From positions 2,666,001 through 2,730,000 of the forward strand of contig NZ_CP007014.1 in assembly GCF_000452705.1 (NCBI RefSeq): DNA of 64,000 nucleotides. Direction: 5' to 3'. The translations under genes were made by a program, and so were the position numbers. A model generated the notes under the pieces. The model searched no databases. It was given only the letters and a program-made list of their open reading frames with translations, and was not told the DNA's origin. Position 1 is the first letter of the stretch. Every line of letters begins with the position of its first letter. Positions 6,734 through 59,141 of the stretch are shown piece after piece. Origin of the DNA: Pseudomonas syringae CC1557. Its GTDB lineage: Bacteria; Pseudomonadota; Gammaproteobacteria; Pseudomonadales; Pseudomonadaceae.

Positions 6734-6749
6734 TAGTACAGATGTACTA
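6734..6749 (-). promoter_or_regulatory. Island operator 1 (TAGTACA-GA-TGTACTA) for the bacteriocin genes
   Basis: Perfect 7-bp inverted repeat with a 2-bp centre. Read on the minus strand, TTTAAA follows directly and GATTAT lies 17 bases later, so the motif abuts the -35 region of a promoter pointing at the double-glycine peptide gene. Confidence 0.8.
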
Positions 6750-7421
6750 GTGGCTGATTGAGCAATGATTTTCGCATGGGGGCATCTTGTGAGAGCTGTA
6801 TTGGAGGACTTTCAATTTTGGTGAGATGCACCAGTTCGAAGAAATAAAAGGTCGAGCACGGATGACGCAGAAGCGCGTCGCTGACGCTTGTTAGGCAGGT
6901 GAGAGAGAAAATGCCGTAAGCACTTCCTGATCGGGATAGATAGAAATCGTACTCTGAAAGAGCTTGATAACACTGATCGAATCCCTCCACATTTCATCTG
7001 AGCGTTGAGCCAGCATCGAAGGCGATACCAAGACGGATAAGGCTAGCCTCGATCGCGCAAGCCGAATCGTTTGATTGAAAGGGCAGGTTATTGATCGAGT
7101 GAGTGATTAAGTGTTATGTTTAGTACTCAGACTGCTCTGTCGGAGGTCGAACTGCAAGTCCTTGGTGCTACGAAACGGTACATCAGAGGTTGCTGACGTA
7201 TGGCGCAGCCAGTGCGCATAGGCCCGCCCCTTCCCAAGCTCCTGCGCGAAGGCACCAGCATTACCGTACGACTGGGCGTAGGCTATTTGCTTTGGCTTGG
7301 CGTCAAAGTGCTACGTTCTCGTAGCCCGATTTGCTTCCGACCAGCCGCTCAACAACCTCTGCCGAGCATTTTGCTCACTGGATTCCTCCTGGCAGCACTC
7401 AGTCTGAAGCCTGTTTAAGGT
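6750..7421. other. Intergenic region without a supported gene
   Basis: Nearly 700 bases lie between the bacteriocin operator and the chorismate mutase wreck. Minus-strand frames at 6709-6990 and 6812-6997 start near GGAGGG but overlap the operator side, have no recognisable features and may be remnants. I see no RNA gene or terminator that I can defend. Confidence 0.35.
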
Positions 7422-7732
7422 TTAGTGAGTTTTCAACTCTTCTTCAATGAATGCAGAGATCATCGCTCTGTATACCCGCTCCACGACATCAGGTGAGGCG
7501 CCGGAATCGGTTGCAATTCCGCGCACTTTGCTGATGACCTGCTCAACCCTCGCTGGAGCGCGCACATCATAAGTGGTTTTTTTGAAAGCCGCCGTTGGGT
7601 GACGAGGTTGCCGCGCCTGGCGAGGAGTGCAACCACATCGCGGTCGAGGCGGTCTATGTGTTGACGAACTTCTTCGATTGATGTGCAGAGCGTACGTCCA
7701 TGCGTGCAGTGATTAAAGGCTGTCTTGGGCAC
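7422..7732 (-). pseudogene. Frameshifted chorismate mutase (AroQ/PchB-type)
   Basis: The start reads SIEEVRQHIDRLDRDVVALLARRG, a typical first helix of AroQ-class mutases. After VTQ the frame shifts at CAACGGCGGC, and the rest continues in the next frame as AAFKKTTYDVRAPARVEQVI, then SPDVVERVYRAMISAF, to a stop at 7422. Together they make a full-length small mutase of about 100 residues, but the single open frame ends in unrelated sequence. A genuine frameshift seems likely; a sequencing error cannot be excluded. It stands alone next to another decayed enzyme gene. Confidence 0.75.
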
Positions 7733-7881
7733 CTCTGGCGACGCTTATTGCGGATTTTGTCCATTCTGGCCATTGCCTGAACCGCTGATATTTTTTCATA
7801 ACGCGGTGCCAGGTATGGCTACAGGATTGCATCAGCTTTGAACGATACTAATGGGAGCCTCAATGTATATTTGAAGACGTT

Positions 7882-8263
7882 ATGATGGATTCTCCGATCG
7901 AAGCAGGAAGCCATATCACCATTGGCAAAGCACTGACACCGCTACGCGACGAGGGCGTCCTGATCATCGGCAGTACCGTCAGTTACCACGGCGGGCTGCG
8001 CCGCCTTGGCCAGGACATAGCGGGCGCCACGCGGCGCTTCGATTACTGGCTGGCGGCAGGCCTGCAAATACCTGACCCCGTCGCTCGCGCACGCGCTTGA
8101 GAAATAGGAGGACGCGGCGGACGCACGGATTTGCCATCCTCTCAGCGAGCATTTAACGCCCCTGTTCGTTACGATTGGTACTATCGGCAGCGACATAGGG
8201 TGACGTGTTTTTCACGATCACCTGTTCGGTAACATGAAGTATTCGGCTTACCCATTTGGTTGA
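7882..8263 (+). pseudogene. Fragment of a LigB/DODA-type extradiol dioxygenase
   Basis: The first part reads HITIGKALTPLRDEGVLIIGS then VSYHGGLRRLG, which matches the middle of DODA-family dioxygenases (APLRDEGVLIIGSG-SYHN). After about 8090 the match continues in another frame as HPLSEHLTPLFVTIG and then FHDHLFGNMKYSAYPFG, followed by TGA at 8261. The N-terminal half, with the first metal ligands, is missing. This is a truncated and frameshifted relic. Confidence 0.7.
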
Positions 8264-8563
8264 TCTGCTGCGTAGATTGCATCTAAAACTCTAGGTCGCG
8301 TGGTCTTAGAGAGAAAAGCCTGGCCAGATCCTGGCATGGGTGCCAACCGTAACCGATGAGCCAGCTCATTGCGTATCTTTGGCCTTGCGGCGTTGTCACT
8401 CGGAACACTTGGGAAATCAAAATCAATGGAACGATCACGGAAGTCTCGGCAATCGGGATTGATGATATCTTCATCCCGGAAGACATCATTATCCCCCTAT
8501 AAACCGGGCACTGGCGAAAACTCGATCATTGCCCAAGCGCTCAGGGAGCGCCTGGAAATAAAC
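8264..8563. other. Short intergenic region, nothing recognised
   Basis: These 300 bases lie between the dioxygenase relic and the end of the DUF1963 gene. Small frames exist on both strands but none has a convincing start or a family match, and no island operator is present. Confidence 0.35.
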
Positions 8564-10141: not shown

Positions 10142-10157
10142 TAGCACAGGTGTGCTA
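10142..10157. promoter_or_regulatory. Island operator 2 (TAGCACA-GG-TGTGCTA), divergent
   Basis: Perfect 7-bp inverted repeat between a minus-strand and a plus-strand gene. On the minus strand TCGAAA follows, and TATGTT starts 23 bases after the motif. On the plus strand TTGAAG follows and only a weak GATCTT lies at the same distance. It may serve one or both directions. Confidence 0.75.
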
Positions 10158-13306: not shown

Positions 13307-13322
13307 TAGTACACCTGTACTA
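13307..13322. promoter_or_regulatory. Island operator 3 (TAGTACA-CC-TGTACTA)
   Basis: Perfect inverted repeat. On the plus strand TGTTTG follows, with TAGGTT 17 bases later (13346-13351), pointing at the secreted-protein gene at 13455. On the minus strand TACTTT lies 22 bases beyond the motif, so the permease operon could also be served. Confidence 0.8.
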
Positions 13323-14267: not shown

Positions 14268-15926
14268 TCAGCTCAATGCAGGCGTCGCGTAACCCACGTC
14301 TTGCATCTGGTTCATTTTGAAAGTCAGCAGTAATGAGCGGAGTTCAGCAGGGCGTACGGGCTTGGACAGTATCGGAATATCCGGATCGTTGAGTGATTGC
14401 TGTACATGCTGTAAATCATGACCGGTAATCACGATAGCGGGTATCCGTCTGCCGTGCATTTCGCGCAGATAGGCAATGCTGTCAGCACCGGACGCGGTCC
14501 GGTCAAGGTCGAAGTCGGTGATGACAAGGTCGCAATCCACTCGGGTCTGGGGGATCGCTGACGCGGTCTGCACATCGCAGCCCCATTTTCGCAGCAACAT
14601 TGCGGTTGCTTGCAGAACGTTGTGGTTATCTTCAATCAGCAACACACGCAAGCCTCCGAGCAGGCGTTTGTTCCAGTCTATATCAGGCGCTGGGGCCACT
14701 ACATTTGCGGGTACGATAGGCAGGCCGTCAACGATCACGGATGTACCGCGGCCCGGGCGTGACTTGATGCTGAGTTCCAGTTTCAGCAATCGGGCAATAC
14801 GGCTGACAATACTTAACCCAAGGCCGACACCCTCGATGTCTTGATCACGCTTTTCACGAACCCGATAGAACTCATTGCACAGGTGCGGTAGATGTTCCGC
14901 CGATATCCCGCGGCCAAGGTCATAAACGCCAATGCTCAGCTTGCCTTTATGCTGTCGGCAGCCAATCAGGACCGGTTTGTCTGGCGCATATTTGAACGCA
15001 TTTGAAAGTAAATTCTGCACCAGCGTGCACAATAACGTGGCGTCACATCGAACATGTTGACGACACGGTCGCAGTCGGACTTCAACGCCTGCCCAGTTGG
15101 CCGCTTCACTGTTCTGACTGACCAGACTACTCAATAACGCGTCGACATCGATGGTTTCCAGATGCGGCTTCATATCGCCCTGATTGAGGGTGTAGATATC
15201 CAGCAACGAGCGGAAAAGTTGCTCAACGGCGCTCAACGCCCGGTCGATGTTGTCGACCAGTTGACGCTCATCAGTGCCTAGTTGCCCGTCGCGCAGGCAG
15301 GCAGTGAACAAACTGATGGAGTGAATCGGCTGACGCAGGTCATGACTGGCTTGTGCCAGGAAGCGTGACTTGGCTTCATTCGCGGCCTGGGTTTCCTCAA
15401 GCGCGATATGCAAACGCGAGAGCAGAAAGTAAACGAATAACGGCAGCACCAGCATCGTCAGGATCATCATTACCGCGACGGCAGGGTGTTGCTGCAGGAA
15501 AGGTGTGAACTGGATGATCAGCGCCAGGGAGGCCAGGGCAAATCCGGTGGACATCAACAGGTAAGTGCGCCCGTAGCGCATGCCGTAGCCTACCGTCATG
15601 CTCAACATGACTGAATAGACGGGCAGCATCGTTTCGCCCCCGACAGTAATCGTGACAATCCCGGCCATGTTGTCGACCACCAGGGCAAACATCCTGCGCG
15701 TCGTTGAAGCGCCGGGCTTTTGCGCGATGCGTATGATCAACCCCGTATTGACGATACCGAAGGCGAAGCAATAAGCCAGAATGACCCACGTCCGCGTAGC
15801 CGTCATATCGTCCATTTCATAGGCGATGAGTGTGTACAGCGCGGAGGTGGCAATTACCGCCATGCGCAATAGAGCCTGGATCATTTCCAGGTCTTTGCAT
15901 TTGGTGAGTATCGATATCATTGACAT
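14268..15926 (-). CDS. Membrane hybrid histidine kinase with C-terminal receiver
   Basis: This encodes a 552-residue sensor. About six membrane helices fill the first 170 residues with no large periplasmic domain, so the signal is probably sensed in or near the membrane. The phospho-accepting histidine is His195 in QASHDLRQPIHS. The ATPase domain has an N box with NAFKYAP, DLGRGI and GVGLGLSIV. The receiver at about 425-540 has VLLIEDNHN, VITDFDLD and the conserved Lys in ILSKPVRP. AAGG precedes the ATG. It lies 184 bases downstream of the response regulator gene on the same strand and is a close paralogue of the kinase at 59957-61570. Confidence 0.92.
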   Translation of the reverse strand: MSMISILTKCKDLEMIQALLRMAVIATSALYTLIAYEMDDMTATRTWVILAYCFAFGIVNTGLIIRIAQKPGASTTRRMFALVVDNMAGIVTITVGGETMLPVYSVMLSMTVGYGMRYGRTYLLMSTGFALASLALIIQFTPFLQQHPAVAVMMILTMLVLPLFVYFLLSRLHIALEETQAANEAKSRFLAQASHDLRQPIHSISLFTACLRDGQLGTDERQLVDNIDRALSAVEQLFRSLLDIYTLNQGDMKPHLETIDVDALLSSLVSQNSEAANWAGVEVRLRPCRQHVRCDATLLCTLVQNLLSNAFKYAPDKPVLIGCRQHKGKLSIGVYDLGRGISAEHLPHLCNEFYRVREKRDQDIEGVGLGLSIVSRIARLLKLELSIKSRPGRGTSVIVDGLPIVPANVVAPAPDIDWNKRLLGGLRVLLIEDNHNVLQATAMLLRKWGCDVQTASAIPQTRVDCDLVITDFDLDRTASGADSIAYLREMHGRRIPAIVITGHDLQHVQQSLNDPDIPILSKPVRPAELRSLLLTFKMNQMQDVGYATPALS

Positions 15927-16110: not shown

Positions 16111-16734
16111 TTACTTGATGACCAGACGGGAAAACTGAGCTGCGGCCGCTGAACGTGTCGGCACGCCCAGTACCTTGAGCAGACTGGAAACATGGATGCG
16201 TACAGTAAAAGGTGACACACCCAGTTCCTTGGCGATTTCCTTGTTGGTTTTGCCAGAGGCCACCAGACTCAGGACCTGCTTCTGGCGAGCTGTCAGGTGG
16301 CTGAGAATCTTCACGTCAGCATCGTCAAGGATCAACCCGCCGGGTTTGTATTTGACGACAATCTCACCTTCGCGGATAGCGAGGATGGATTCTGCAATTT
16401 CCTGGGGGTCGATGTTCTTGCCGATAAACCCGTCCGCGCCATTTGACATGACGAGGGAGATGGTCTTCAGGTCATCGACCATGGACACCACAATGATGGA
16501 CGTGCGTTTGAATTCCGCGCGCAGTTCGGCGATAGCCTGAATCGAACTCAAACCGGGGAAATGCAGATCCAGAAATAACATATCTACTTCAGCACCGGAC
16601 CGAGCCAATGCCAGCACTTCATCGAGATTGCTGGCCTGCTCAATGACCGACCCGGGCAGCAGTCGCTCGATGGTTCGAAACATGCCTTCACGAAACAGAG
16701 GGTGGTCGTCAGCCACGATAATTCTGCACGACAT
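16111..16734 (-). CDS. NarL/LuxR-family response regulator, candidate master regulator of the island
   Basis: This encodes a 207-residue two-domain regulator. The receiver has Asp9-Asp10 (VADDHP), the phospho-acceptor Asp56 (LFLDLHF) and the switch region. The LuxR-type helix-turn-helix at about 143-195 reads LTARQKQVLSLVASGKTNKE followed by IAKELGVSPFTVRIHV. GGAG precedes the ATG. It is cotranscribed upstream of the hybrid kinase. A decayed paralogue lies at 4.5-5.1 kb. NarL-type proteins bind dyad sites next to -35 regions, which is what the island palindrome offers, so I propose that this protein binds it. Binding itself is not shown by the sequence. Confidence 0.93.
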   Translation of the reverse strand: MSCRIIVADDHPLFREGMFRTIERLLPGSVIEQASNLDEVLALARSGAEVDMLFLDLHFPGLSSIQAIAELRAEFKRTSIIVVSMVDDLKTISLVMSNGADGFIGKNIDPQEIAESILAIREGEIVVKYKPGGLILDDADVKILSHLTARQKQVLSLVASGKTNKEIAKELGVSPFTVRIHVSSLLKVLGVPTRSAAAAQFSRLVIK

Positions 16735-18546: not shown

Positions 18547-18562
18547 TAGTACGCATGTGCTA
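18547..18562 (+). promoter_or_regulatory. Island operator 4 (TAGTACG-CA-TGTGCTA) for the yfaP-yfaQ operon
   Basis: The two half-sites are different variants of the consensus. TTGATG follows directly on the plus strand, and TCAATA/CAATAT lies 23-24 bases beyond the motif. The start of yfaP is at 18738. Confidence 0.75.
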
Positions 18563-18737: not shown

Positions 18738-19565
18738 ATGCGCGGGATCAGTGACAAGCTGTTTGGAAGCGCCCCGGTGTGTTGTGTGCTGGTGCTCACT
18801 TTTGTATGGGGGAGTACGGCTAGCGCCGAGTCATCCTCTGCGCTCACGGAACCTGTGGGCGGCTGGCGTTACAACGGCCTTCTGGACCGAAGTGAAGCAC
18901 CGCGAGTCGCGTACCCGACGCCTCCCATCGACCGCGGTGAGCAGCGCAGTCGCACCATGATCGAGGGCCAGATCAAGGCCCTTGGCAAGCAACGCGGCCC
19001 CAATGTTCTCGCGGTCAACGGCAACCCTTTGAACCTTTACACCGATGAGCAGGGGCGCTTTGCTCGGCCATACGCCTTTGGTGCGGGGTCCAACAGTGTT
19101 GAAGTGCGCAGCGCCGAAGGCAAATCCCTCAAACGCGTGCAGTTTTACGAAGCCAATAACCAGCGCACGCCAGCACGCATTCGAGTCGTGCTGGGATGGG
19201 ATGATCCAAATGCCGAGCTCGACTTGCACATCGTTACGCCCGACGGCCAGCACGCGTTCTTCGCCCATCCGGTGCTGACCAACGGCGGCGGTCTGGATAC
19301 CGACAGCGTGGATGGACCTGGCCCCGAGATGTTCACCATGACTGCGCCGCTGCAGGGCACCTACCTGATTTACGTGAATTACTGGGGCAACTACAGCAGT
19401 GGCGGCGGTTACAACTTCGATGAAGCCAGTAACGAAAAGGAAGTGATCACTTCGCAGATAAACCTGGTGCTCAACGAAAATACTGTCAATGAAAAACGCG
19501 AGACATTCATCGTGCCTTTGCGTGGCATCGGTGACCTGCTCTTGGTCAAAACATTCAACTATTGA
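18738..19565 (+). CDS. yfaP: YfaP-like DUF2135 periplasmic protein
   Basis: This encodes a 275-residue protein with a signal peptide cut near STASAES. The C-terminal half holds the DUF2135 domain: VVLGWDDPNAELDLHIVTPD, HAFFAHP, DSVDGPGPE and GTYLIYVNYWGNYSSGG. These are hallmarks of YfaP and of MagA in the Pseudomonas macroglobulin operon. AGGGTG precedes the ATG. It is the first gene of the five-gene operon and stands downstream of operator 4. Family members are thought to accompany the bacterial alpha-2-macroglobulin; a precise role is not known. Confidence 0.88.
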   Translation: MRGISDKLFGSAPVCCVLVLTFVWGSTASAESSSALTEPVGGWRYNGLLDRSEAPRVAYPTPPIDRGEQRSRTMIEGQIKALGKQRGPNVLAVNGNPLNLYTDEQGRFARPYAFGAGSNSVEVRSAEGKSLKRVQFYEANNQRTPARIRVVLGWDDPNAELDLHIVTPDGQHAFFAHPVLTNGGGLDTDSVDGPGPEMFTMTAPLQGTYLIYVNYWGNYSSGGGYNFDEASNEKEVITSQINLVLNENTVNEKRETFIVPLRGIGDLLLVKTFNY

Positions 19566-19601
19566 TCATCCCCTCCCACGGATGAATTGGGTTTTGTGAA
19601 C

Positions 19602-21377
19602 ATGAGCGATAACTCGACTTCAGCGACTTCCGAGCCAACCGGCACGCCCGTCGTAAAACCTGTCCGACGCTGGCCATTGCTGTTGGGCGGGCTGTGTGTG
19701 GTCGCCGGTGTTGCCGGTGCAATGGGTTGGCTGATGCTCAAACCCAAGGGGCCGATGGTCGAAATTGCCAGTGACAAACTGCACTTGAGCCGTCCGGATG
19801 GTTTGCTGGAAACCACATCTTTGAGCCAGTTGCCCAAGGATTTGCTGGCGGTACCGTTCCTTAAGGACACACTCACCGAAGATTTCGTTTTTTATTACGA
19901 AACCCATACTGATCGCCTTGGATTGATCGGTAGCCTGCGCAGAATCATCTACGAATATGAGCTGACATTGCAGGACACCCTGATTGAGCAACTCCTTGAT
20001 CAGCCTGCGGACATCGCGCTGTGGCGCGGCAAGGACGGGCGACTCAAAGACTTCCTTATGGTCATTGATCGTGGCGGCATGGCCAAGATGCTGGAGCAAT
20101 TGGTCAAAGTGCTCTATGACCCGCAACTGAGCGAAATCGGTGTGGTGAAGATCGGTTCCGATGAGGTTCCGCTCTATCTTTTGAATTACAACGCAAGCAA
20201 GTCGCTGGCGTTCGCCTCCTATGGCGACAAGCTGGTAGTAGTGTCAAACCCGAACAAAATCGCGGGGCGTGATTCGACCCTGTATGGGCAGGCGCCGTCC
20301 AGCCTGAGTCAGCCTCTGGGGCAGGAAGACGGAAAGTCTGCCCCGGAGTCGGGCAGTATTTCGCCCGAAGCCCTCGCCGCATTACTCAATGGCGAAAAAC
20401 TGTTTACCGAGGCATTTGGGCTGCAGCCGCGCGCGCCGCAGGTCAAGCAACGGCTGTCGGTCAACGCCAGTGTTCTGGCCATGGGGTATCAGCGCTTTAT
20501 TCCGAACTTCGCTGGCCTGCGTTTCGAAATGGACGAGAAGGGCTGGCACAGCTTTCTGGCGATGAACGAAACCGAGCATCAGCCAGGTTTTGATTTCAAT
20601 CCGATCTGGCAAGCGATGCCCATAGGTGCCAGCGCGTGTGTGGCTTTGCCCCTAGCGGCCGCGCAACAAAAGCCATTGCTGGTAAAGCTCGGAGCAGAAG
20701 AGACGGTTGCGCAGGCGCTCACTGCGCACATCTCTGATGCAGCGGGTCTTTGCTGGTATGCCGATTCACGTTTGTACACGCCGTTGCTGGTTGCTCATCT
20801 GACCGACAAGAACAGCGCCAGCCTAGATGGTGATCTGGGCAAGCTGTTCGGTTCCATGGTCGGCTCCTACGAGGCAAATACCGAAGGTCATGTGTTCCCG
20901 GTAGTGGAGAAGCAGCAGGGCGACACTCATCAATGGCAGCGACAGGTCAGCACCCGTTTTGGTCCGTATCTGGCCAGAGAGGCGGAAAACCCTGACGCGG
21001 TCAGCGGCAATGCGTTCATGAAGGTCAGTCTGGCGCGGCACGGTTCGACACTGCTGTTCTCCTTGGACGACCAACTTTTGGACAAAGCCGTCGGCACCCT
21101 CGACAAACGGTTCCCGCCGCTGGCTGACGTGTTGCCGGCCGATCAACTGGTTCCGGTCTATTTCAACCCGAATGCCATTGCGCAACTCCTGCAACAGGAA
21201 ACTCTGGGCAGTCTGCCCAAGGACATGGAGCCGGTTTTTTACAACGCCGCGCAGACGCATCTGATCCCGAAATTGCAGAAACTCGGTGGGTACGGCAAGT
21301 ACGCACTGACGCTGCCGCAAGGCACTGAACCCGATGGTCGATGGCAGTGGTTGCCATTGGAGTGGAAGCCGCTGTGA
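19602..21377 (+). CDS. yfaA: YfaA-like DUF2138 protein
   Basis: This encodes a 591-residue protein starting MSDNSTS. A single N-terminal membrane helix (about 22-42, [20 protein letters not shown]) anchors a large periplasmic domain. Segments such as [22 protein letters not shown], read in part, and [12 protein letters not shown] agree with DUF2138 proteins, which occur as YfaA in enterobacteria and MagB in Pseudomonas. The start is chosen at the ATG; upstream TTG/GTG codons are possible. The stop overlaps the GTG start of yfaT. Confidence 0.85.
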
Positions 21378-22012
21378 TTGCTCTGGGGCGAGGCCTTGCT
21401 CTGCTGGCGATACTGCTCGGCAGTCCCGCGTTTGCCAGTCAGATTCCAGCGCTCGACGCGCAGCAGTCTCAGGTATTTCGTGCCTGGTTTGTACGCATTG
21501 CTCAGGAACAACTGGCCCAAGGCCCCAGCCCGCGTTGGTATCAGCAGGATTGCGCGGGCTTGGTGCGCTTTGCCAGCAACGAAGCACTGAAGGTTCACGA
21601 CGACAAATGGCTGCTCAGTAATGGTTTGTCCAATCGTTACCTGCCGCCCGAGATGCAATTGAGCGACGCTCAGCGGGGGCTCGCCCAGCAATGGCAGCAA
21701 GGCAACGGACAAACCGGCCCCTACGTGAATGCGATCAAACTGATTCAGTTCAACAGTCATCTGGTAGGGCGCGACATGGCTCAGGCCCGACCCGGTGACC
21801 TGATGTTTTTCGATCAGGGCGATGACCAGCACCTGATGATCTGGATGGGTCGCTACATCGCCTATCACACCGGCACCACGACACCCACCGACAACGGCAT
21901 GCGCTCGGCAAGCTTGCAGCAACTCATGACATGGAAGGACACCCGATGGATACCCGACGCTGCCAACCCGAATTTTATCGGCGTCTATCGACTCAACTTT
22001 CTCTCCCAATGA
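21374..22012 (+). CDS. yfaT: YfaT-like DUF1175 protein, NlpC/P60-like features
   Basis: This encodes a 212-residue secreted protein. GTG 21374 overlaps the yfaA stop and begins a signal peptide ending [22 protein letters not shown] holds a candidate catalytic Cys, and [19 protein letters not shown] holds a candidate His, an arrangement like NlpC/P60 peptidases. DUF1175 is the recognised family (YfaT/MagC). Enzymatic activity is inferred from the motif order only. Its stop overlaps the yfaS ATG. Confidence 0.85.
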
Positions 22013-25000
22013 TCGGTGCCCGCATGCCGCGTATTTGCTCTCTGATTACATTGTCGCTGGCACTGTTGCTGCCTATGACTGGCGTCAACGCCGATGACAG
22101 CGTCGAGCCAAGCGGCTACGGCGCAGTACCGGGAGAAAGTTTTTTTCTGCTGGCGGACAGCAGCTTTTCCAGCGATGAGCAGGCCAAAGTGCGCCTTGAA
22201 GCTCCGGGCCGTGACTATCGCCGGTTCCGCATGCAGCCTTATGGCGGCGCAGATATCCGCGTGTATCGCATCGACAAACCCACGGACTTCCTCAAGCGCC
22301 AGAAAAATCTGCACCGCGTGGTCAGTGAGGGGCAGTTCAGGGGAGAAGGGTTGTCCAACACTCTCGCGTATCTCTGGGATAGCTGGTATCGCCAGTCCCG
22401 GCGTGTCATGCAGCGTGCGTTTTCCTATGAGTCCCGCAAGCAGGTTACAGAAGAAGTACCTGAACTGAAGATGGGTAACGCGATGGCTGCGCCTACACCG
22501 TACGAGGCGCAAGCGCAGTTCGCTTTGATCCCCGGCCTGCCGGTGGTGAGTCAGTTCCGTTACCCGATCTGGGAAGCAAAACCGATCCAGCCACCGGCCG
22601 GTGTTGACCTTAACGGCTCGTCCAGCAAATTCATCAAAGTCGTGCCCGGCAACGTCTACATCCCGCTGGGCAAGTTAAAGCCCGGGCTGTATCTCGTGGA
22701 GGCGCTGATCGGCAAGTACCGCGCCACGACCATGGTGTTCGTCTCCAATACCGTTGCAGTGAGCAAGGTTGCCGGTGAGGAGCTTCTGGTGTGGGCTGCC
22801 CGCAAAAACGAAGGCAGTCCAGTCGAGAAGGTAAACGTGCTCTGGACCGATGGCCTGGGCGTCATGAGCAGTGGCGCGACTGATGCGCAGGGTTTGATCA
22901 GACTCAAACACGTCAGTCCCGAACGCTCATTCGTGATCGGTGAAGACCAGGAGGGCGGTGTTTTCGTTGCGGAGAATTTCTATTACGATAGCGAGATCTA
23001 CGACACCAAACTCTTCGCGTTCACTGACCGGCCGTTATACCGCCCAGGAGACTGGGTCTCGTTGAAGATCGTCGGGCGGGAGTTCAAGAATGCCCGGGAT
23101 TCCGTGGCACCAGCGGCAGCGGACGTAGACGTGACCATCCTCGATGCCACCGGTACTGCGCTGCAGTCCCTGGCGCTCAAGCTGGATTCGGAGGCAGGCG
23201 CCCAAGGCCGCTTTCAGCTCCCGGACAATGCCGTTGCCGGTGGTTACGAAGTGCGTTTCAGGTACAAGGATCAGGCCTACAGCAGCGCGTTTCGTGTAGC
23301 AGAGTACATCAAGCCGCACTTTGAGATATCCCTGAACCTGGCCAAACAGGACTACAGCATCAACGAGCCGGTGAAAGGCAACCTGACCTTGCTCTATCCG
23401 GACGGCAAGCCTGTGGCGAATGCAAAGCTGACTCTGAGCTTGCGCGCTCAGCAGCTGTCGACTGTGGATAATGAGCTGCAATACCTCGGGCAGTTTCCGG
23501 TTGAATTGAAGAGCGCCGAGCTCACCACTGACGCGAAGGGTAACGCGACGCTTGACCTGCCTCCTGCGTTCAACCCCAGCCGCTACATGCTCACCGTGTT
23601 TGCCAGTGACGGTGCGGCGTATCGGGTCAGGACCACGAAAGAAATCCTGATTGACCGGGGTGCCGCTAGCTACCGGATTACCGCCCCACAACGGTTCAGC
23701 GCAGTCGGCGAGAAGGTTGTCTTCGGCTATACGAACGAAGGTGGCAGCGAGCAAAACCGGTCCGTCACACCCGCCAGCTATAAATGGGTACGACTGGAGG
23801 ACCAGAGCAGCGGCGGTGACAAGCTCGTCTCCGCGAATGAGGCTTTCAGCGTGACCTTTCAGCGCCCAGGTACTTATAACCTGACGTTGATGGATGAAAA
23901 CGGTCGTTTGCTGGGGGCCACCGGCCATTCGGTAAGCGGTGACGGCGTCAAGGCGGTAGCGGGTACCGTTGAAGTGATTTTCGACAAGCCCGAGTACACC
24001 GTCGGCGACGAAGCTACTGCGCTGATCACCTTCCCTGAGCCCGTCAGCGATGCGTTGCTGTCTCTAGAGCGCGACAAGGTTGAAGCCACGGCGTTGCTGT
24101 CCAAGGGCGGCGACTGGTTGAAGCTGGAAAAGCTCAACGATATCCAGTACCGGGCGCGAATTGCCGTGAAGGACAACTTCGCTCCGAACCTGACCTTCTC
24201 GGTGCTGTACACCAAAGGCGGGCAGTACAGCTTCCAAAACGCCGGGATCAAGGTCGTTGCACCGCAGATCGACGTGGCCATTGCCACCGACAAAGACGCT
24301 TATCGGCCGGGCGACACCGTGTCCGTGGACCTGACGACCCAGTTCGCAGGCAAGCCTATCCCGGCACACCTGACGGTCAGCGTGGTTGACGAAATGATCT
24401 ATGCGCTGCAACCGGAAATTGCGCCCGCCATCGACCAGTTTTTCCACCACCCGCGCCGCAACAATGTGCGCACCAGTGCCAGCTTGTCCTTCATCAGCTA
24501 CGACGTCGCGTTGCCCGGCAGCCCGACGGCACCAGGCAAAGCCAATCGCAGTGATCGCAGCGTAAAAGTGCTGGAGCGGCCACGTCGTGAGGACGTTGAC
24601 ACCGCTGCGTGGGAGCCTGAACTGGTGACCGATGCAAACGGCAAAGTGCGCTTCACCTTCAAAATGCCGGACTCGCTGACTCGCTGGCGCATCACTGCCA
24701 GGGCCATCGATCAAACAGGACAAGTCGGTCAGAAAAGGCAGTTCGTGCGCTCGGAAAAACCGTTGTATCTGAAATGGAGCGGGCCAACCCGATTCCGGGC
24801 CGGAGATAAGCCGGACCTCGGCGTGTTCGCGTTCAGCCAGGCCGACCAGCCGGTCAAGTCAGAACTCTTGACCCACTACGCTGGAGCCGAGCAGCGCATA
24901 CCGGTGACCCTGAACAAAGGCATCAACTACATCGCGTTGCCTGGATTCCCGCTGGCGAGTGGCGAATGGAAGGCCGAGTTGGTGCAGGACGGTAAAACCG

Positions 25001-26583: not shown

Positions 26584-26584
26584 C

Positions 26585-28283: not shown

Positions 28284-28299
28284 TAGCACACCTGTACTA
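28284..28299 (+). promoter_or_regulatory. Island operator 5 (TAGCACA-CC-TGTACTA)
   Basis: TCGAAA follows the motif after one T, and TATGAT (28323-28328) starts exactly 23 bases beyond it, a near-consensus -10. This is one of the clearest promoters of the set and points at the lipoprotein gene at 28375. Confidence 0.85.
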
Positions 28300-30922: not shown

Positions 30923-30938
30923 TAGTACGGATGTACTA
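30923..30938 (-). promoter_or_regulatory. Island operator 6 (TAGTACG-GA-TGTACTA), no close target gene
   Basis: On the minus strand TTGCGC follows the motif, and TTAACC lies 17 bases later. The plus strand shows no acceptable -10 and leads into converging genes. The transcript would run leftward for about 190 bases before the zinc-ribbon-like gene. Confidence 0.65.
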
Positions 30939-31954: not shown

Positions 31955-31970
31955 TACTACACCTGTACTA
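31955..31970. promoter_or_regulatory. Island operator 7 (TACTACA-CC-TGTACTA), between divergent LprI-type genes
   Basis: The left half-site has one change from TAGTACA. On the minus strand TCTATT starts 24 bases beyond the motif, leading to the gene at 31894. On the plus strand TTGAAA follows the motif, but the -10 is poor. It may control both LprI-type genes. Confidence 0.7.
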
Positions 31971-32486: not shown

Positions 32487-32494
32487 GCTGTTCA

Positions 32495-38331: not shown

Positions 38332-38347
38332 TAGTACACCTGTACTA
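38332..38347 (+). promoter_or_regulatory. Island operator 8 (TAGTACA-CC-TGTACTA) for the biosynthetic operon
   Basis: Perfect inverted repeat. TATAAG (38372-38377) starts 24 bases beyond it, a good -10, and the first gene starts at 38413. This ties the seven-gene biosynthetic operon to the island regulon. Confidence 0.85.
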
Positions 38348-40436: not shown

Positions 40437-41287
40437 GCCGGACGGTGAGCCTCAACGTTTTGCGTGCCGGTTGGTGCCGACACCTGGCATGCATGGCAGA
40501 TCGCTGCGCTCGTTGGGCGCCCACGCGTTTCCCGTCATTGTGCGGGCTGATTCGCCATCCCGTTGCTGGCTGGATCCTGTACGACACGGGCTACGCTGAG
40601 CATTTTTTCAAGGCCACCCAGGCCCTGCCAGAGCGCTTGTATCGCACAGCGGTGCCGGTTCAATTACCCGTGCAGGAGCAACTGCTCGCTCAACTGAACG
40701 GCTTCGGCATCCAGCCGGACGATATCCGCACGGTGATCGTTTCGCATTTTCACGGCGACCATGTCGCCGGGTTGCGAGACTTCAATCAGGCGTCATTCAT
40801 TGCCCTAGATGCTGACTGGCAGTACATCGAAAGCCTACGTGGCTCGTGTTGGCGGGCCACCCTTGGCGGTCATTTGCCTGTCTTGTTGCCGGACGATTTC
40901 GCCAGTCGGCTGACCCTTGCCGACCGTTGCAGGCAAGCAATCTTGCCGGAATGGATGGCCCCCTTCACTCATGGCCTCGACCTGCTGGGTGACGGCAGCC
41001 TGATCGGTGTGCCGCTACCGGGACACAGCCATGGCCAACTGGGTCTGTTTATCCCTGATGCCCAGGGGCGTCCGGTGTTTCTGGTGGCCGACGCCTGCTG
41101 GTCCGTGCCTGCTTGCCGCGCAGAGCGGCTGCCTGCGGCGCCTGCGCTGTGGTTTGCCGGTCACGACGCCGGACAATACCGACAGACCTACGCCAGCCTT
41201 GGCATGCTGATTCGGCGAGAACCCGCAGTGGCGGTGCTGCCTTCGCACTGCACCCACGCCTGGGAGGCGTTCAGCAATGAGCAGTGA
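40433..41287 (+). CDS. MBL-fold metallo-hydrolase
   Basis: This encodes a 284-residue metallo-beta-lactamase-fold protein. HFHGDH (105-110) is the metal-binding motif, with further ligands in PLPGHSHGQLG and VADACW and a late His in PSHCTHAW. Members hydrolyse lactones, thioesters and similar bonds. In this operon it may release or open an intermediate. It overlaps both neighbouring genes by a few bases. Confidence 0.88.
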   Translation: MSRTVSLNVLRAGWCRHLACMADRCARWAPTRFPSLCGLIRHPVAGWILYDTGYAEHFFKATQALPERLYRTAVPVQLPVQEQLLAQLNGFGIQPDDIRTVIVSHFHGDHVAGLRDFNQASFIALDADWQYIESLRGSCWRATLGGHLPVLLPDDFASRLTLADRCRQAILPEWMAPFTHGLDLLGDGSLIGVPLPGHSHGQLGLFIPDAQGRPVFLVADACWSVPACRAERLPAAPALWFAGHDAGQYRQTYASLGMLIRREPAVAVLPSHCTHAWEAFSNEQ

Positions 41288-42635
41288 ACGCTTGATCGGC
41301 AAGCTGCGCAGCGCACTGAGTTTTCTCAACAGTCGCTATCGCTTGCGGTTCACCCGACGAGAGCAACTGGAGGCGTGGCAGGCACAACAGTTAAAGCGTT
41401 TTTTGCAAGACATGGTGCCGACAGCCGAGCGCTTCAAAGACCATCGATTCACCCGGCTGGCGGACTTTCCACTGATGGACAAAGCGACAATGATGAACGA
41501 CTTTGCTGCGTTCAACACTCGCGGTCTTGGTCTGGATCAGGTCTTGCCGCTAGCGCGCCGGGCAGAGGAATCCCGCGACTTCAGCCACACGCTGGACGAT
41601 ATAACCGTGGGGCTTTCAAGTGGCACTTCCGGTAACCAGGGCGTGTTTCTGGTCAGCGCCCTTGAGCGTCAGTGTTGGGCAGGGATTCTCCTAGCGCGGA
41701 CCTTGCCGGGCCGCTTCCTTCCCCGTCTGCTGTGCTTCTGGCAAGCGCCACTGCGGATCGCTTTTTTTTTGCGTGCCAACAGCCGCTTGTACACCACACT
41801 GAGCAGTCGCCGTATCGACTTCGTTTTTCACGACCTGACGCTTGGGCTCGATGCGTCACTTGAACGTCTGCAGACGCAGAATCCTGATGTGCTGGTGGCC
41901 CCAGCGACCTTGTTGCGGGGGCTCGCTGAAGCCTCATTGAACGGGCGTTTGTCGATACGCCCAACGCATATTCTTTCGGTGGCCGAGGTGCTTGAAAGCA
42001 CGGATGCAGATGCCGTACTCAAAGCCTTTGGGGTAATGCCGCAGCAGATTTATCAAGCCAGCGAAGGCTTTCTCGGTTACACCTGCGAGCAGGGGACTTT
42101 GCACCTCAATGAAAGCCATCTGCACATTGAGCCTGAGTGGCTCGACGCCGAACACACCCGTTTCCAGCCCATCATTACCGACTTCTCCAGACGCACGCAG
42201 ATGATCGTGCGGTATCGCCTCAATGATGTGCTGCGCGTTAGCGACGCCGATTGCGCTTGCGGGCGTGTTGAACGGGCGATTGCCGCTATTGAGGGACGTG
42301 CCGACGACATCCTCTGGCTTCCTGATTTGGCAGGGCGTCAGTTGTGCGCGCTGTATCCGGATGTCGTGCGCCGGACCTTGCTGATGCATGGCGCTAAGCT
42401 GCAGGAATATGAGATCCACCAGACTGGCCTGAACTGGCAGATCAACGTGCCGGCCAGCCGCGATCATGACGCGCTGTGCAAGGTAATCAGCGAAAATCTT
42501 CATCAGTTATGTGCCGGGCAGGGCGTGCGTTCACCGGAGTTCAGCTTCGGTCACTGGCGAGCGCCGCCCTCGCACGTCAAACGCCGACGTTTGAAACTCC
42601 TGCAATTGCCTGAGGGACTGCCATGCACGTACTGA
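41277..42635 (+). CDS. F390-synthetase/PaaK-like AMP-forming ligase
   Basis: This encodes a 452-residue adenylate-forming enzyme. The phosphate loop is VGLSSGTSGNQGVFLVS; YQASEGFLGYTCEQG fits the substrate/AMP region; and CACGR followed by AIEGRADDIL matches the coenzyme F390 synthetase and phenylacetate-CoA ligase group. It should activate a carboxylic acid as acyl-AMP. It is not an OleC-type beta-lactone synthetase by length or motifs. It overlaps its neighbours by 11 and 13 bases. Confidence 0.85.
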   Translation: MSSERLIGKLRSALSFLNSRYRLRFTRREQLEAWQAQQLKRFLQDMVPTAERFKDHRFTRLADFPLMDKATMMNDFAAFNTRGLGLDQVLPLARRAEESRDFSHTLDDITVGLSSGTSGNQGVFLVSALERQCWAGILLARTLPGRFLPRLLCFWQAPLRIAFFLRANSRLYTTLSSRRIDFVFHDLTLGLDASLERLQTQNPDVLVAPATLLRGLAEASLNGRLSIRPTHILSVAEVLESTDADAVLKAFGVMPQQIYQASEGFLGYTCEQGTLHLNESHLHIEPEWLDAEHTRFQPIITDFSRRTQMIVRYRLNDVLRVSDADCACGRVERAIAAIEGRADDILWLPDLAGRQLCALYPDVVRRTLLMHGAKLQEYEIHQTGLNWQINVPASRDHDALCKVISENLHQLCAGQGVRSPEFSFGHWRAPPSHVKRRRLKLLQLPEGLPCTY

Positions 42636-43777
42636 TTCTGGGGGCTCGTGCACCTGCATGTCTGGAGTGGGCGAGGGCCTTCAACGAGGCTGGCTGGTCT
42701 GTAAGCGTGGGTGATTCGCTGGGTCAGCCGCTGAGCCGTTTCAGTCGTTCAGTGCACGACTTCGTTCGTTTACCCGAGCCCAGACTCGACCCTGCAGGCT
42801 GGATCGAAGCGCTGGCCAGCGCGATCAAGGCACAACGTATCGACCTATTGCTGCCAACCTGCGAAGAAGTGTTCTATCTGGCCCATGGTCTGGAGAGCCT
42901 CAGGCCGTTGTGCCGAGTGCTGACCAGTGATTTTGCGCTGTTGCACCGACTGCATCACAAGGGGCATTTCGCGGCCATGATTCATGGCTGGCCGTTATCG
43001 ACACCCGAAACCCGGCTGCTGACGGATCACCAGGCTGTCCTTGCGCTCAGCACGGAGATTGCGCAGTGGGTGTTCAAACCGGCTTACTCGCGTTTCGCTT
43101 CGCAAACCCTGATTCAGCCCGACGCGAGGCAGTTGAGCAAGGTTCAGCCCAGTATCGAGGCGCCGTGGGTTGCGCAGCGTTTCATTAAGGGCCTTGAGTT
43201 CTGTAGCTTCAGCGTGTTGATCGAGGGGCAGTTACGCGCTCATGGCGTCTACCAGCCGCGCTATCGGGTGGGCCGGGGTTCGGGGATCTATTTTGCGCCT
43301 GCGACGCCCGAACCTGTGCGTCGATTCCTGGAGCAGTTCGGCGGTGAAACCGGCTATACCGGGCAGATCGGTTTTGACTTTATCGAAGATCAAGCAGGCC
43401 GTTTCCATGTGCTGGAGTGCAACCCGCGGGCGACCAGTGGCGTACACTTGTTCGACAATCAGCGCCAGGCGTTGGTGAAAAGCCTTGGCGAAGCATCGAG
43501 CGGCGTAATTGAGCCTACCCAGGAACCGCGAATGATCGCACTGGCGATGCTTTTACTGGCTGCGCCTTCACGTGCGTTGCGTGCGGGGTTCTGGCGCGAT
43601 TACCGGCTGGCCTGCGACGTGATCGTTCAGCAAGGAGACGTCCTGCCGCTGGCTGCCCAATGGCTGAGCCTTGGGGAAATCATCTATCGCGCTTCCTCCC
43701 GCCGCTGCGGATTGCTGGCCGCGTCCACCGCCGACATCGAATGGAACGGGCAGGCATTAGAGGAGCCACCACAGTGA
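42623..43777 (+). CDS. ATP-grasp ligase
   Basis: This encodes a 384-residue protein. The N-terminal Rossmann-like part reads VLILGARAPACLEWARAFNE. The ATP-grasp core has WVFKPAYSRFASQ with the ATP-binding Lys, APWVAQRFIKGLEFCSFSV and the metal-binding end GFDFIEDQ-FHVLECNPRATSG. Such enzymes join a carboxylate to an amine or thiol through an acyl-phosphate. This makes an amide-containing product likely. The stop overlaps the next GTG. Confidence 0.87.
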   Translation: MHVLILGARAPACLEWARAFNEAGWSVSVGDSLGQPLSRFSRSVHDFVRLPEPRLDPAGWIEALASAIKAQRIDLLLPTCEEVFYLAHGLESLRPLCRVLTSDFALLHRLHHKGHFAAMIHGWPLSTPETRLLTDHQAVLALSTEIAQWVFKPAYSRFASQTLIQPDARQLSKVQPSIEAPWVAQRFIKGLEFCSFSVLIEGQLRAHGVYQPRYRVGRGSGIYFAPATPEPVRRFLEQFGGETGYTGQIGFDFIEDQAGRFHVLECNPRATSGVHLFDNQRQALVKSLGEASSGVIEPTQEPRMIALAMLLLAAPSRALRAGFWRDYRLACDVIVQQGDVLPLAAQWLSLGEIIYRASSRRCGLLAASTADIEWNGQALEEPPQ

Positions 43778-44913
43778 AGCTATTGTTTCAGGAGCAACTC
43801 CTTCAGGAGCCGGTGACCCCCCACGACAGTCCAGCCCGACAATACGTCCGCGGCTGGAGCGAGGCAGGACTGATCGCCAATGTCAGCACGCGGATGGCGC
43901 TGCTGGACACCGGGACGCAGCAGCTTGCGGTGAGCATCAATGACGGACACGGCCCTGAAGACAACTGCTATGTGGTGTCGCCCCGTACCGCCTACAGCGG
44001 TTACGCCCGCGAAGAACTCAACCGCATTGGCCGCCCGTGGTTGACCCGACCACTGAGCGCCCTGACCCAAGGCGTCGATGCCTTGTTGAGCGCAGCCAAA
44101 GTCGACAAGCTGGTTCAGGTCAACAACTGGCTGCTGTCGACCAATCTGCATCCCGCTGACTGGGATCTGAACGAGCTGCCGCAGATCAGTGCTTTTTTGC
44201 AGCGAACATTTCCTGATCACGCGCTGTGTTTTCGCTCGATCAATGAGTTCAGTAACCGTGAACTGAAACAGCGTTTGCAAGGGCTCGGCTTCCTGAGTAT
44301 CCCTAGCCGACAGGTGTATGTATTCGACGGCCGGAGCGGGGCAGATGCACCGTTCCTCCGGCATCACAACACCCGACTCGACCGCACACTGTTGCGCCGC
44401 AGCCCCTATGAGGTAGTGCCTGGCTCTGCCCTGAGCGACAGTGATTTTCTGCGGGTAGAACAGCTGTATAACCTGCTGTATCTGGAAAAATATTGCAGGC
44501 TCAACCCTCATTACAGCGCCCGCTGGATGCAGCGTGGTCAACGTGAAGACTGGCTGGAGCTGCGTGTTCTGCGCAACCCGGATGGTCGTATTGATGGCGC
44601 GTTGGGCTGGTTTGCCAATGCCGCTACCATCAGCACCCCGATTGTGGGATATGACACTGCATTGCCACAGAGAACCGGCTTGTACCGGCAATTGACCTGT
44701 CTGTGCCTGCTGGAAGCCGCCGAGCGCCGCACCGTGCTGAACTTCAGCTCTGGCGCTGCAGGTTTCAAACGCCTGCGTGGGGGCCAGCCGCAGATCGAGT
44801 ACAGCCTGATCAAGGTCGCCCATTTGCCTTGGCAGCGTCGCTGGATATGGCGATTGCTCAGCGTTTTGCTGCATGGAATAGGTGTGCCCCTCATGAGAGC
44901 ACTCAAACTGTGA
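43774..44913 (+). CDS. Acyltransferase-like protein (GNAT/FemAB-like)
   Basis: This encodes a 379-residue protein starting at GTG 43774 with AGGAG upstream. The C-terminal half (LELRVLRNPDGRIDGALGWF, then GLYRQLTCLCLLEAAERRTV and FSSGAAGFKRLRGG) looks like a GNAT-fold or FemAB-like acyltransferase. No catalytic residues can be fixed by eye. The operon position suggests a late acyl or aminoacyl transfer. GTGA overlap with the Rieske gene. Confidence 0.65.
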   Translation: MKLLFQEQLLQEPVTPHDSPARQYVRGWSEAGLIANVSTRMALLDTGTQQLAVSINDGHGPEDNCYVVSPRTAYSGYAREELNRIGRPWLTRPLSALTQGVDALLSAAKVDKLVQVNNWLLSTNLHPADWDLNELPQISAFLQRTFPDHALCFRSINEFSNRELKQRLQGLGFLSIPSRQVYVFDGRSGADAPFLRHHNTRLDRTLLRRSPYEVVPGSALSDSDFLRVEQLYNLLYLEKYCRLNPHYSARWMQRGQREDWLELRVLRNPDGRIDGALGWFANAATISTPIVGYDTALPQRTGLYRQLTCLCLLEAAERRTVLNFSSGAAGFKRLRGGQPQIEYSLIKVAHLPWQRRWIWRLLSVLLHGIGVPLMRALKL

Positions 44914-45911
44914 ATCACCTTACTCAATGGTGGCCGGTAGCGCTGAGCCACAAACTGAAAAAAGACCCGATGGCGTGTCAAGTTCTCGACATGCCACTGG
45001 TGCTGTTTCGCGTCGACGATGGACGCGCTGCCGCATTGCCGGACCGCTGTCCCCATCGCTTTGCGCCATTGAGTCAGGGCCGGGTTCGCGATGGACATAT
45101 CGAATGCCCTTATCACGGTTGGCGGTTTTCCGCAGACGGCCGTTGCACCCGAGTACCCGGCACTGATCAGTGCCCCTCAAGCAAAGCATTGCTCAACAGC
45201 CTGGCCTGTTGCGAAGCCCACGGCCTGGTGTGGGTCTGCCTGAGTGATCAGCGTCCAACTGAGGTGCCGGTTGCCCCGGCCCAGCAGGGGCAAAAACTCG
45301 ATACGTTCTGGATGACGGATCAAGTGCAGTGTTCATTGCAGGACGCCGCAGAAAACTTTCTGGACGGATTTCACACCCATTTTGTTCACGCCGCGTGGAT
45401 TCGTCACGATAAGCAGCGCCAACGCATCTCGGTCCTGGTTCGTGCGCTCGATGACGGTATCGAAGCGATTTACAGCGATGAGGGCAAACAGTCAGGGCTT
45501 ATCTCGCGATTGTTCGAAGGGCAGCGGGGCGAGAGCATGGGGCGTTTTCGTCTGCCAGGGCTTTCGGAAATCGAGTACCGCAATGGCAATGATTGCCTCA
45601 ATCTGCTGGTCAGCGCCTGGATGACTCCTTGTGCTGACGGGCAGCTGCGGGTTTTCGCGCGAGTCGCGACGGCCCGGGGTAAAACTCCCGCCGTGCTGAA
45701 ACGTGCCGTATTGCGGCAGGCGTTCAAGGTCATCTTGCGGCAGGACCGACAGATTCTGGAGCAGGTCAGTGCCAACAGACGACGCTTCCAGCAATACCCG
45801 GTCAAGCCGCTGGATGGCCCGCAAGACTTGCTGGGGCCTGGCATCCGGCATTTGCTTGAGCTGGGGCAGTCGCTGGTTTTTGACGAGCGCTCCGTTGATA
45901 TATCGCTGTGA
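44910..45911 (+). CDS. Rieske non-heme iron oxygenase, alpha-subunit-like
   Basis: This encodes a 333-residue enzyme. The [2Fe-2S] ligands are Cys47 and His49 (RCPHRFAPLSQG) and Cys66 and His69 (ECPYHGW). The mononuclear iron site is seen in AENFLDGFHTHFVHAAW. These make a complete oxygenase unit that would hydroxylate, desaturate or demethylate the product using an external reductase, which is not encoded nearby. It is the last gene of the operon and is followed by REP elements. Confidence 0.88.
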   Translation: MNHLTQWWPVALSHKLKKDPMACQVLDMPLVLFRVDDGRAAALPDRCPHRFAPLSQGRVRDGHIECPYHGWRFSADGRCTRVPGTDQCPSSKALLNSLACCEAHGLVWVCLSDQRPTEVPVAPAQQGQKLDTFWMTDQVQCSLQDAAENFLDGFHTHFVHAAWIRHDKQRQRISVLVRALDDGIEAIYSDEGKQSGLISRLFEGQRGESMGRFRLPGLSEIEYRNGNDCLNLLVSAWMTPCADGQLRVFARVATARGKTPAVLKRAVLRQAFKVILRQDRQILEQVSANRRRFQQYPVKPLDGPQDLLGPGIRHLLELGQSLVFDERSVDISL

Positions 45912-52341: not shown

Positions 52342-52357
52342 TAGCACACATGTGCTA
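52342..52357. promoter_or_regulatory. Island operator 9 (TAGCACA-CA-TGTGCTA), divergent
   Basis: Perfect inverted repeat between divergent genes. On the plus strand TTGAAA follows, with AATTAA/ATTAAT at 23-24 bases. On the minus strand TATAGC starts 21 bases beyond the motif. It could control both the large periplasmic protein and the plus-strand pair. Confidence 0.75.
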
Positions 52358-54698: not shown

Positions 54699-54714
54699 TA
54701 GCACATGTGTACTA
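54699..54714 (+). promoter_or_regulatory. Island operator 10 (TAGCACA-TG-TGTACTA)
   Basis: A T-rich -35 region follows, and TATAGT (54738-54743) starts exactly 23 bases beyond the motif. The lipoprotein gene starts at 54781. This is the model promoter for the set. Confidence 0.85.
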
Positions 54715-56072: not shown

Positions 56073-56088
56073 TAGCACATATGTGCTA
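56073..56088 (+). promoter_or_regulatory. Island operator 11 (TAGCACA-TA-TGTGCTA)
   Basis: This is the most symmetric copy (16-bp perfect palindrome). TTGAGC follows after one T, and TACCGT starts 23 bases beyond the motif. The secreted protein gene starts at 56206. Confidence 0.8.
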
Positions 56089-58372: not shown

Positions 58373-58400
58373 CCTAGCCCGATTCGCCCTGAGAGCGAGA

Positions 58401-58434
58401 ACCGATGCCTTATCAATATTTAAAAGGCATCGGT
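58401..58434. terminator. Bidirectional hairpin between converging genes
   Basis: ACCGATGCCTT and AAGGCATCGGT form a perfect 11-bp stem between the stops of the FadL-type gene and the minus-strand lipoprotein gene. No long T tract is visible on either strand. Confidence 0.6.
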
Positions 58435-58440
58435 CATTGA

Positions 58441-58956
58441 TCAATAGGTTCTGAACGCTCGTACCACGTCACCTCTGAAATCAATATGTATCTCGGTAAT
58501 TTTTACCTTTTTACCTGGGGTGTTGCTGCCTGAGAGTGTGCCAGCGTCATTCACTACTTCCTGCGCTTCACCCGCCTTGATTTGTCCACCAATGATGGCG
58601 CTGCTTGCAGAACTTCCGCCCGCGCCCGAGTACCGACTGGTATATTTATAAGCCATGTCCGCGAGCTTACCTAATTTTGAATCTTTGCTGTCATACACCC
58701 ACTGAGCAGTGTTATCACCTAAATTATCACGCACAGAGGTAGGGTCACCGAACTTTTCACGAATCTGTTCCTTTGACGATTTTCCAACAATAATGTTCGC
58801 CTTGATGAACTCAGGAGCATACTTGGAATCGCCCGTCAAAGAATCCAGTCCCGGAATTGAATTCCCGACACCGCTTGAACAGGCCGTCAAGGCCATCGTG
58901 ATCATCCCCGCACTTATTAGACCTTTAAATTTTGCCAGTTGGCAATAAGTACCCAT
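58441..58956 (-). CDS. Putative lipoprotein, SmpA/OmlA-like
   Basis: This encodes a 171-residue protein. The N-terminal segment LISAGMITMALTAC is a lipoprotein signal with lipobox LTAC. IIVGKSSKEQIREKFGDPTS followed by QWVYDS is the pattern of the SmpA/OmlA (BamE-like) fold. A Gly/Ser-rich linker follows at about 110-125. The end (EIHIDFRGDVVRAFRTY) completes a beta-rich domain. It is not the housekeeping BamE; function unknown. Confidence 0.78.
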   Translation of the reverse strand: MGTYCQLAKFKGLISAGMITMALTACSSGVGNSIPGLDSLTGDSKYAPEFIKANIIVGKSSKEQIREKFGDPTSVRDNLGDNTAQWVYDSKDSKLGKLADMAYKYTSRYSGAGGSSASSAIIGGQIKAGEAQEVVNDAGTLSGSNTPGKKVKITEIHIDFRGDVVRAFRTY

Positions 58957-59125
58957 GACTGTTACCTCTGATCTAAGAGTAGTGTGGTGTTAATATTTTT
59001 TGCGCCGGTGCGACTGCAAATGGCACATACTTGTAATGTGGAGTGACCAGTCAAAGCATACCTTTAACGGTGAGTCGGATTCCGTCTATTGCGCTAGCTT
59101 AAAGGTGCTGTTGCAGAATTGCCTA

Positions 59126-59141
59126 TAGTACAGATGTGCTA
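59126..59141 (+). promoter_or_regulatory. Island operator 12 (TAGTACA-GA-TGTGCTA) in front of a decayed gene
   Basis: TTGCCT follows after the motif, and TAACCT starts 24 bases beyond it. The only downstream gene before the second kinase is a frameshifted membrane-protein gene at 59336, so the operator has outlived its target. Confidence 0.75.

Follow-up and report, generated by a model that had tools for sequence, protein, structure and literature searches.

Palindromes clustered in one district of the Pseudomonas syringae CC1557 chromosome as probable operators of a NarL-type two-component regulator

A 64,000-nucleotide stretch of the Pseudomonas syringae CC1557 genome (contig NZ_CP007014.1, positions 2,666,001 to 2,730,000; hereafter the window) contains twelve near-identical palindromes, each composed of two inverted heptamers (TAGYACR) two bases apart. 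The interpretation of these palindromes as the operators of a regulon is supported by comparison of sequences within this genome and across the genus. They are probably 7-2-7 operators of the response regulator whose gene lies at 16111-16734, and this protein, after phosphorylation by either or both of two hybrid kinases, would switch on genes whose products are for the most part exported, located in the membrane or predicted to act in antagonism. The genes of this putative system are:

16111..16734, minus strand: candidate regulator P0001, a response regulator with REC and GerE (LuxR-type helix-turn-helix) domains
14268..15926, minus strand: hybrid kinase 1 (P0002), with five hydrophobic segments, HisKA, HATPase and REC
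59957..61570, plus strand: hybrid kinase 2 (P0003), of the same build as kinase 1

An initial annotation had reported the twelve palindromes as a cis-clustered regulon of about 52 kb, with intergenic sites too dense to be there by chance. Scanning with the pattern TAGYACRNNYGTRCTA recovers all twelve at the places given, eleven as exact matches and the copy at 31955 with one mismatch, and the density is indeed far beyond expectation, with 12 window matches at up to two mismatches as compared with a mean of 0.89 and a largest value of 4 in shuffled sequences. A search of the whole genome (5.81 Mb in two contigs) finds 14 exact sites, all of them at C1:2672734-2736683, corresponding to 6734-70683 on the scale of the window; those at 64564, 67428 and 70668 lie past its right end. 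The clustering therefore stands with all 14 exact sites in one district, but the cluster is longer than first described, extending over at least 64 kb. There are seven one-mismatch places genome-wide, six of them within C1:2594836-2697955 and the seventh on the second contig (53.6 kb). Places with two mismatches were considered as members and rejected as noise, because 24 of the 25 are outside the district and a reversed control pattern gives more genome matches with two or fewer mismatches (130) than the motif itself (46). None of the 19 cluster sites (window scale -9340 to 70668) overlaps a called gene, in a stretch 58% covered by calls (P ~6e-8, using our own codon-usage caller, which misses small and low-GC genes), and the sites are thus intergenic as the annotation had it. 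The 16 bp core is also as described, although in this genome the conserved block is longer (CAATAG...CTATTG): among the 20 chromosomal sites with at most one mismatch the base before the core is A in all 20 and the base after it is T in 19. It is unusual that every exact site falls within about 1% of the genome, and so is the series from one to many sites among relatives.

The window frames that were scanned include one complete NarL/LuxR-type response regulator and two hybrid kinases, which supply the candidate regulator that the initial annotation had not named. In the candidate regulator PF00072 (REC) and PF00196 (GerE) both score above their cut-offs, and residues D9, D10, D56 and K106, which we take to be those of the phosphorylation site, are invariant in all ten aligned relatives. 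Its best solved relative is NarL, matched over the full length (1.8e-33), and its score against the NarL equivalog model NF007935 (NCBIfam) is 109.1 bits, below the cut-off of 250. Each kinase has five hydrophobic regions (overlapping windows merged) followed by HisKA, HATPase and REC, with no HPt domain detected using Pfam; the two score 297.4 and 292.3 bits against the NahK/ErcS-type model NF041832 (NCBIfam), for which the cut-off is 400 bits. Kinase 2 is likely to be the older partner, judging by sequence identity, because the kinase at the Pseudomonas canadensis locus L115 is 63% identical to kinase 2 and 47% identical to kinase 1. A degenerate second response-regulator copy, with a 48% identical stretch and one internal stop, is located at 4524-5105 on the minus strand (C1:2670533-2671105), beside the exporter operon listed below.

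The motif and the regulator occur together across Pseudomonas. In an even draw of 149 genomes of the genus, in which the regulator was scored at E<=1e-40 and the motif as an exact match, the motif is present in 40 and the regulator in 52; both are found in 39, the regulator only in 13, the motif only in one (G099) and neither in 96, with a Fisher P of 1.9e-23 that overstates independence since these genomes, like the loci considered below, are related. Put otherwise, the regulator is present in 39 of the 40 motif genomes and in 13 of the 109 others, and the reversed pattern appears in 9 of the 149. A set of 30 genomes gives a cleaner division (regulator at E<=1e-30 in 16 of 16 with the motif and in 0 of 14 without), but because these had been chosen by motif the even draw is used as the count. 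The two are commonly close as well as coincident: of the 39 genomes with both, 30 have a motif no more than 10 kb from a regulator gene. Among the named loci around regulator relatives, which are the best 80 of 302, the approximately 10 kb around the relative contains a site with at most one mismatch in 67 and an exact site in 54, and the reversed control is absent from all 80 (1.57 Mb).

The sites also stand at a near-fixed distance from a -10-like sequence. Near the window sites the score for a -10-like sequence peaks at +24 past the site (24 orientations of 20 sites), and the best score at +22 to +26 is unmatched by 56 other positional windows and by any of 5000 shuffles; for this test the 20 sites were oriented by the neighbouring gene after their sequences had been seen, four being counted both ways and the second-contig site omitted. 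Two further counts are independent of that choice of orientation, in loci that are related to one another. In loci L070-L125 a TAnnnT sequence begins at the 25th base past the site for 42 of 44 sites (TATATT in 38, TATAGT in 3 and TAGAGT in 1), and a lipoprotein frame begins 123-131 bases past the site in 38 of the 44 rows. Of the 47 sites in loci L046-L069, 34 have a TAnnnT at +23 to +25 when both directions are allowed, with 2.2% expected by chance. With the -10 starting at -12, the centre of the site is at -43.5 or -44.5, and the TTG that follows many of the window sites then coincides with the start of the -35, the spacer being 17 bases long. Such an arrangement, with the centre fixed at -43.5/-44.5, a conserved -10 and a weak -35, is typical of activation; repressor sites need no such phase. 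At the Escherichia coli ogt1052 promoter NarL is reported to need no more than one 7-2-7 site, located 32 bp upstream of the -10 and centred at -44.5, for activation (PMC9314961). From the position of the sites here and this precedent we infer that activation is the favoured mode of action.

The twelve window sites and the genes that they face are as follows, with G018 and G202 denoting two of the related genomes.

6734..6749: exact site; faces the double-glycine-leader peptide gene 6417-6629 (minus strand)
10142..10157: exact site; 214 bp upstream of a DUF1963 gene, 8564-9928 (minus strand); in G018 two sites precede DUF1963 genes
13307..13322: exact site; between kinase 1 and a small open reading frame (ORF) plus an inner-membrane ABC permease pair, 11274-12952 (minus strand); G202 has this site too
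18547..18562: exact site; upstream of the mag-like operon (plus strand)
28284..28299: exact site; 75 bp ahead of a lipoprotein- or membrane-like ORF of 178 residues, 28375-28911 (plus strand)
30923..30938: exact site; no convincing target
31955..31970: one-mismatch site (TAC...); divergent, between an LprI-like gene, 32037-32426 (plus strand), and a signal-peptide ORF of 133 residues (minus strand)
38332..38347: exact site; divergent, between the biosynthetic operon 38413-45911 (plus strand) and DUF2339/DUF3999 genes (minus strand)
52342..52357: exact site; divergent, between an exported protein of 725 residues (minus strand) and an ORF of 134 residues (plus strand)
54699..54714: exact site; 66 bp ahead of a lipoprotein gene, 54781-55095 (plus strand)
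56073..56088: exact site; upstream of a signal-peptide ORF, 56155-56967 (plus strand)
59126..59141: exact site; 169 bp ahead of a lipoprotein gene, 58441-58956 (minus strand)

Nearly all of the sites had been assigned initially to secreted, lipidated or exported products or to biosynthetic operons, and this is correct in large part. Eight of the twelve (6734, 18547, 31955, 38332, 52342, 54699, 56073 and 59126) clearly face an exported, lipidated or biosynthetic product; the target of 28284, with a hydrophobic stretch ending in Cys, is a likely ninth, 13307 faces the permease pair, and the remaining two do not fit. The mismatch in site 31955 recurs in both G018 and G202.

The larger gene sets and the peptide gene among or near these targets are:

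6..4509, plus strand: exporter genes (HlyD, C39-peptidase ABC exporter, outer-membrane efflux)
6417..6629, minus strand: peptide of 70 residues with a double-glycine-type leader; of six homologues, one carries the UniRef name Bacteriocin
18738..28204, plus strand: mag-like operon (DUF2135, DUF2138, DUF1175, alpha-2-macroglobulin, DUF2300)
38413..45911, plus strand: biosynthetic operon (ketoacyl synthase III, OleD-like reductase, a lactonase-like protein of metallo-beta-lactamase fold, adenylate-forming ligase, PRK06849-type protein, Rieske protein)

The exporter set is not far from the double-glycine-leader gene, and a one-mismatch site at window scale -507 lies ahead of its first gene. A second small ORF with a double-glycine-like motif is present at 5740-5961 (minus strand) and has no Pfam family; likewise none was found for nine small lipoproteins, peptides and neighbours searched against Pfam. 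The genes of the mag-like operon other than that for alpha-2-macroglobulin presumably match those of the Pseudomonas aeruginosa mag operon, and we know of no product for a gene set such as that of the biosynthetic operon. The district also contains a gene for an MvaT-type xenogeneic silencer (54217-54591, plus strand). To the left of the cluster, the stretch at window scale -74421 to -10198 (C1:2591579-2655802), whose end calls resemble by eye an integrase and a ParA-type protein, is perhaps an integrative element.

The number and arrangement of sites differ greatly among relatives. The simple form is illustrated by L115, with the order site, small lipoprotein, kinase, regulator, and in the fluorescens group the single site is usually ahead of a small lipoprotein gene. 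In the even draw 34 of the 40 motif genomes have one exact site, while G000 has 14, G018 has 11 and G094 has three. In G018 the regulator and both kinases are at 1.47 Mb with a one-mismatch site, and the exact sites are at 2.27-2.29, 2.91-2.92 and 3.13-3.15 Mb, making four chromosomal places in all. Clustering is therefore not essential and the regulator would act in trans; the putative regulon forms one district in CC1557 as first proposed, but cis-clustering does not define it, and tight packing is a trait of some genomes. G202, of which 80 kb was read, has six exact sites and one one-mismatch site and is largely collinear with the window. Conservation at orthologous promoters is evident in both genomes, in which 9 of the 14 G018 sites and 5 of the 7 G202 sites face orthologues of window-site genes (from tables read by eye; two of the nine G018 pairings involve frames that overlap, in one an additional gene separates the site from the mag operon, and the one-mismatch scans covered the fetched stretches). 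The outcomes that the initial annotation had named as refuting it, namely sites equally common in coding DNA or at unrelated loci, or a lack of conservation at orthologous promoters, were looked for and not observed. Near the 2.27-Mb sites of G018 (L126, 12588-12919) are two short frames 80-86% like kinase 1, perhaps a kinase remnant.

These observations suggest how the system may operate and how it may have grown. The regulator would be phosphorylated by either hybrid kinase of the district, or by both, and would then bind each site as a dimer with one monomer per heptamer and activate transcription through contact with RNA polymerase next to the -35. The kinases, being built like the diffusible signal factor (DSF) sensor PA1396, may respond to a membrane-soluble signal; that it is a fatty acid, by the same analogy, is conceivable though somewhat doubtful. 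Of the 120 relatives listed for the L115 kinase, three bear the name RpfC in a source, which is a likeness in name. The arrangement of the fluorescens group, in which one site precedes a small lipoprotein gene next to the kinase, is likely to be the older one. In some genomes of the syringae group many further targets would have come under the regulator, and in CC1557 these targets are gathered in one place. We offer, as a tentative reading that may well prove wrong, that a lipid-signal switch with at first one lipoprotein target recruited an antagonism and envelope-defence programme in part of the P. syringae group by gaining the same class-II operator gene by gene, and that the single district here is a stepwise record of regulon building. 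The predicted programme would comprise a bacteriocin and its exporter, an alpha-2-macroglobulin complex, lysozyme-inhibitor-like proteins, lipoproteins and a secondary metabolite.

Several observations weigh against activation by this regulator at these sites. The -10 profile of the window has a further peak at +1 (z 3.1) arising from sequence adjoining the site, and at several window promoters (e.g. 18547, 56073 and 31955 in the forward direction) the sequence where a -10 is expected is a poor match. Sites 10142, ahead of the gene for a DUF1963 protein, and 30923 have no obvious exported product. In the even draw, 13 of the 52 regulator genomes are without an exact motif and G099 has the motif without a regulator at the threshold used, and where both are present they are more than 100 kb apart in 3 of 39 genomes and on different contigs in 6. 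Finally, 13 of the best 80 loci are without a site at up to one mismatch, and five of these (L110, L120, L122, L123 and L125) have a decayed palindrome near the usual place with a -10 at the usual spacing, in a lenient search whose output of three-mismatch sites was restricted to those with a -10 at that spacing. The diverged palindromes in these five loci, near 7760-7852 and exemplified by TCGTACATCCGCCCTA, with TATAGT at the same spacing, perhaps reflect a shifted specificity of that branch of the regulator.

The 13 regulator genomes without the motif, and the MvaT-type gene within the district, could be accounted for if the sites were operators of another regulator and the response regulator merely travelled with the targets. 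However, MvaT-type proteins are known as binders of AT-rich DNA without such palindromes, a 7-2-7 palindrome suits a NarL-type protein, the motif and regulator co-occur across the genus, and loci L070-L125 keep the place of the site, the lipoprotein frame and the kinase-regulator pair in the order shown by L115; we therefore think this unlikely. Nor do we favour repression by the same regulator from sites overlapping the -35, which is quite improbable. The site does abut the -35, and NarL is a repressor at some promoters (PMC4549865), but the constant phase of the site relative to a conserved -10 and weak -35 is that of activation.

A role in organising the chromosome, like that of the matS sites of MatP, is suggested by a single dense district close to the midpoint of the assembled chromosome, yet placement independent of promoters was not found: spacing to the promoter is fixed, 34 of the 40 motif genomes have one exact site, and those of G018 are at four places. 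This was rejected and is extremely improbable. Many similar copies in one region might equally be those of a mobile repeat, an idea that the initial annotation had already set aside in favour of a dyad with varied centres. That judgement is upheld, in that nine different central dinucleotides occur among 19 sites, the mean identity of the flanks over 190 pairs is 28.2% as against 27.8% for random pairs, and the sites are kept at the same promoters in other genomes. The sole related pair of flanks (sites at window scale -1257 and 70668, 61% identical) apparently represents paralogous promoters. Neither likeness running into the flanks nor a constant centre, as would mark repetitive extragenic palindromic (REP) sequences or miniature inverted-repeat transposable elements (MITEs), is seen, and the mobile repeat was likewise rejected as having a negligible probability.

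With the palindromes read as activator sites of the candidate regulator, a two-component family present in 52 of the 149 drawn Pseudomonas genomes, of which we found no description, gains a likely operator, a target list and a promoter geometry, and its binding, signal and function become testable. Relatives with between one and 14 exact sites of near-constant sequence provide a natural series in which to ask how regulons expand and what brings their genes together, and little-studied lipoproteins and DUF families are tied to a predicted competition or envelope programme. Our literature search found no description of this operator or regulon, in agreement with the initial annotation. The operator letters were not found in the main texts of the transcription-factor compendia for P. 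syringae (PMC7532196) and P. aeruginosa (PMC8041468), the supplementary motif tables of which lie outside that search and could hold an unremarked orthologue motif; PA1397 was not found in the main text of the latter.

The kind of system is a known one, namely a two-component regulator with an activator-type operator, and four described systems are instructive for comparison. NarL of E. coli shares the REC-GerE build, with similarity over the full length, and its output domain is reported to bind, as a dimer, a pair of inverted heptamers separated by two bases (PMC4549865); a single NarL site at -44.5 can activate (PMC9314961), as compared with -43.5/-44.5 here. It differs in that the heptamer here is TAGYACR whereas a published NarL test site has TACCCCT (PMC4549865), in the 109 bits scored here against a model cut-off of 250, and in kinases and targets. 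The mag operon of P. aeruginosa likewise includes alpha-2-macroglobulin but is described as co-expressed with type VI secretion and under RsmA (PMC5764988), whereas the operon here is behind a palindrome. CrbS/CrbR of Pseudomonas fluorescens SBW25 is similar in that a LuxR-family response regulator activates through a promoter-adjacent inverted repeat, the ACTU motif (PMC5715377), as activation would occur here, and dissimilar in its motif (TACTACCATCGTCGAAT at acs) and its acetate-use targets (PMC5715377). The DSF sensor PA1396 of P. aeruginosa is reported to have five membrane helices, HisKA, HATPase and REC without HPt and to act together with PA1397, a DNA-binding regulator, reportedly by way of a distinct HPt protein (PMC6536496, PMC4504480); both window kinases have this architecture, and they too are accompanied by a putative DNA-binding regulator, but here there are two kinases.

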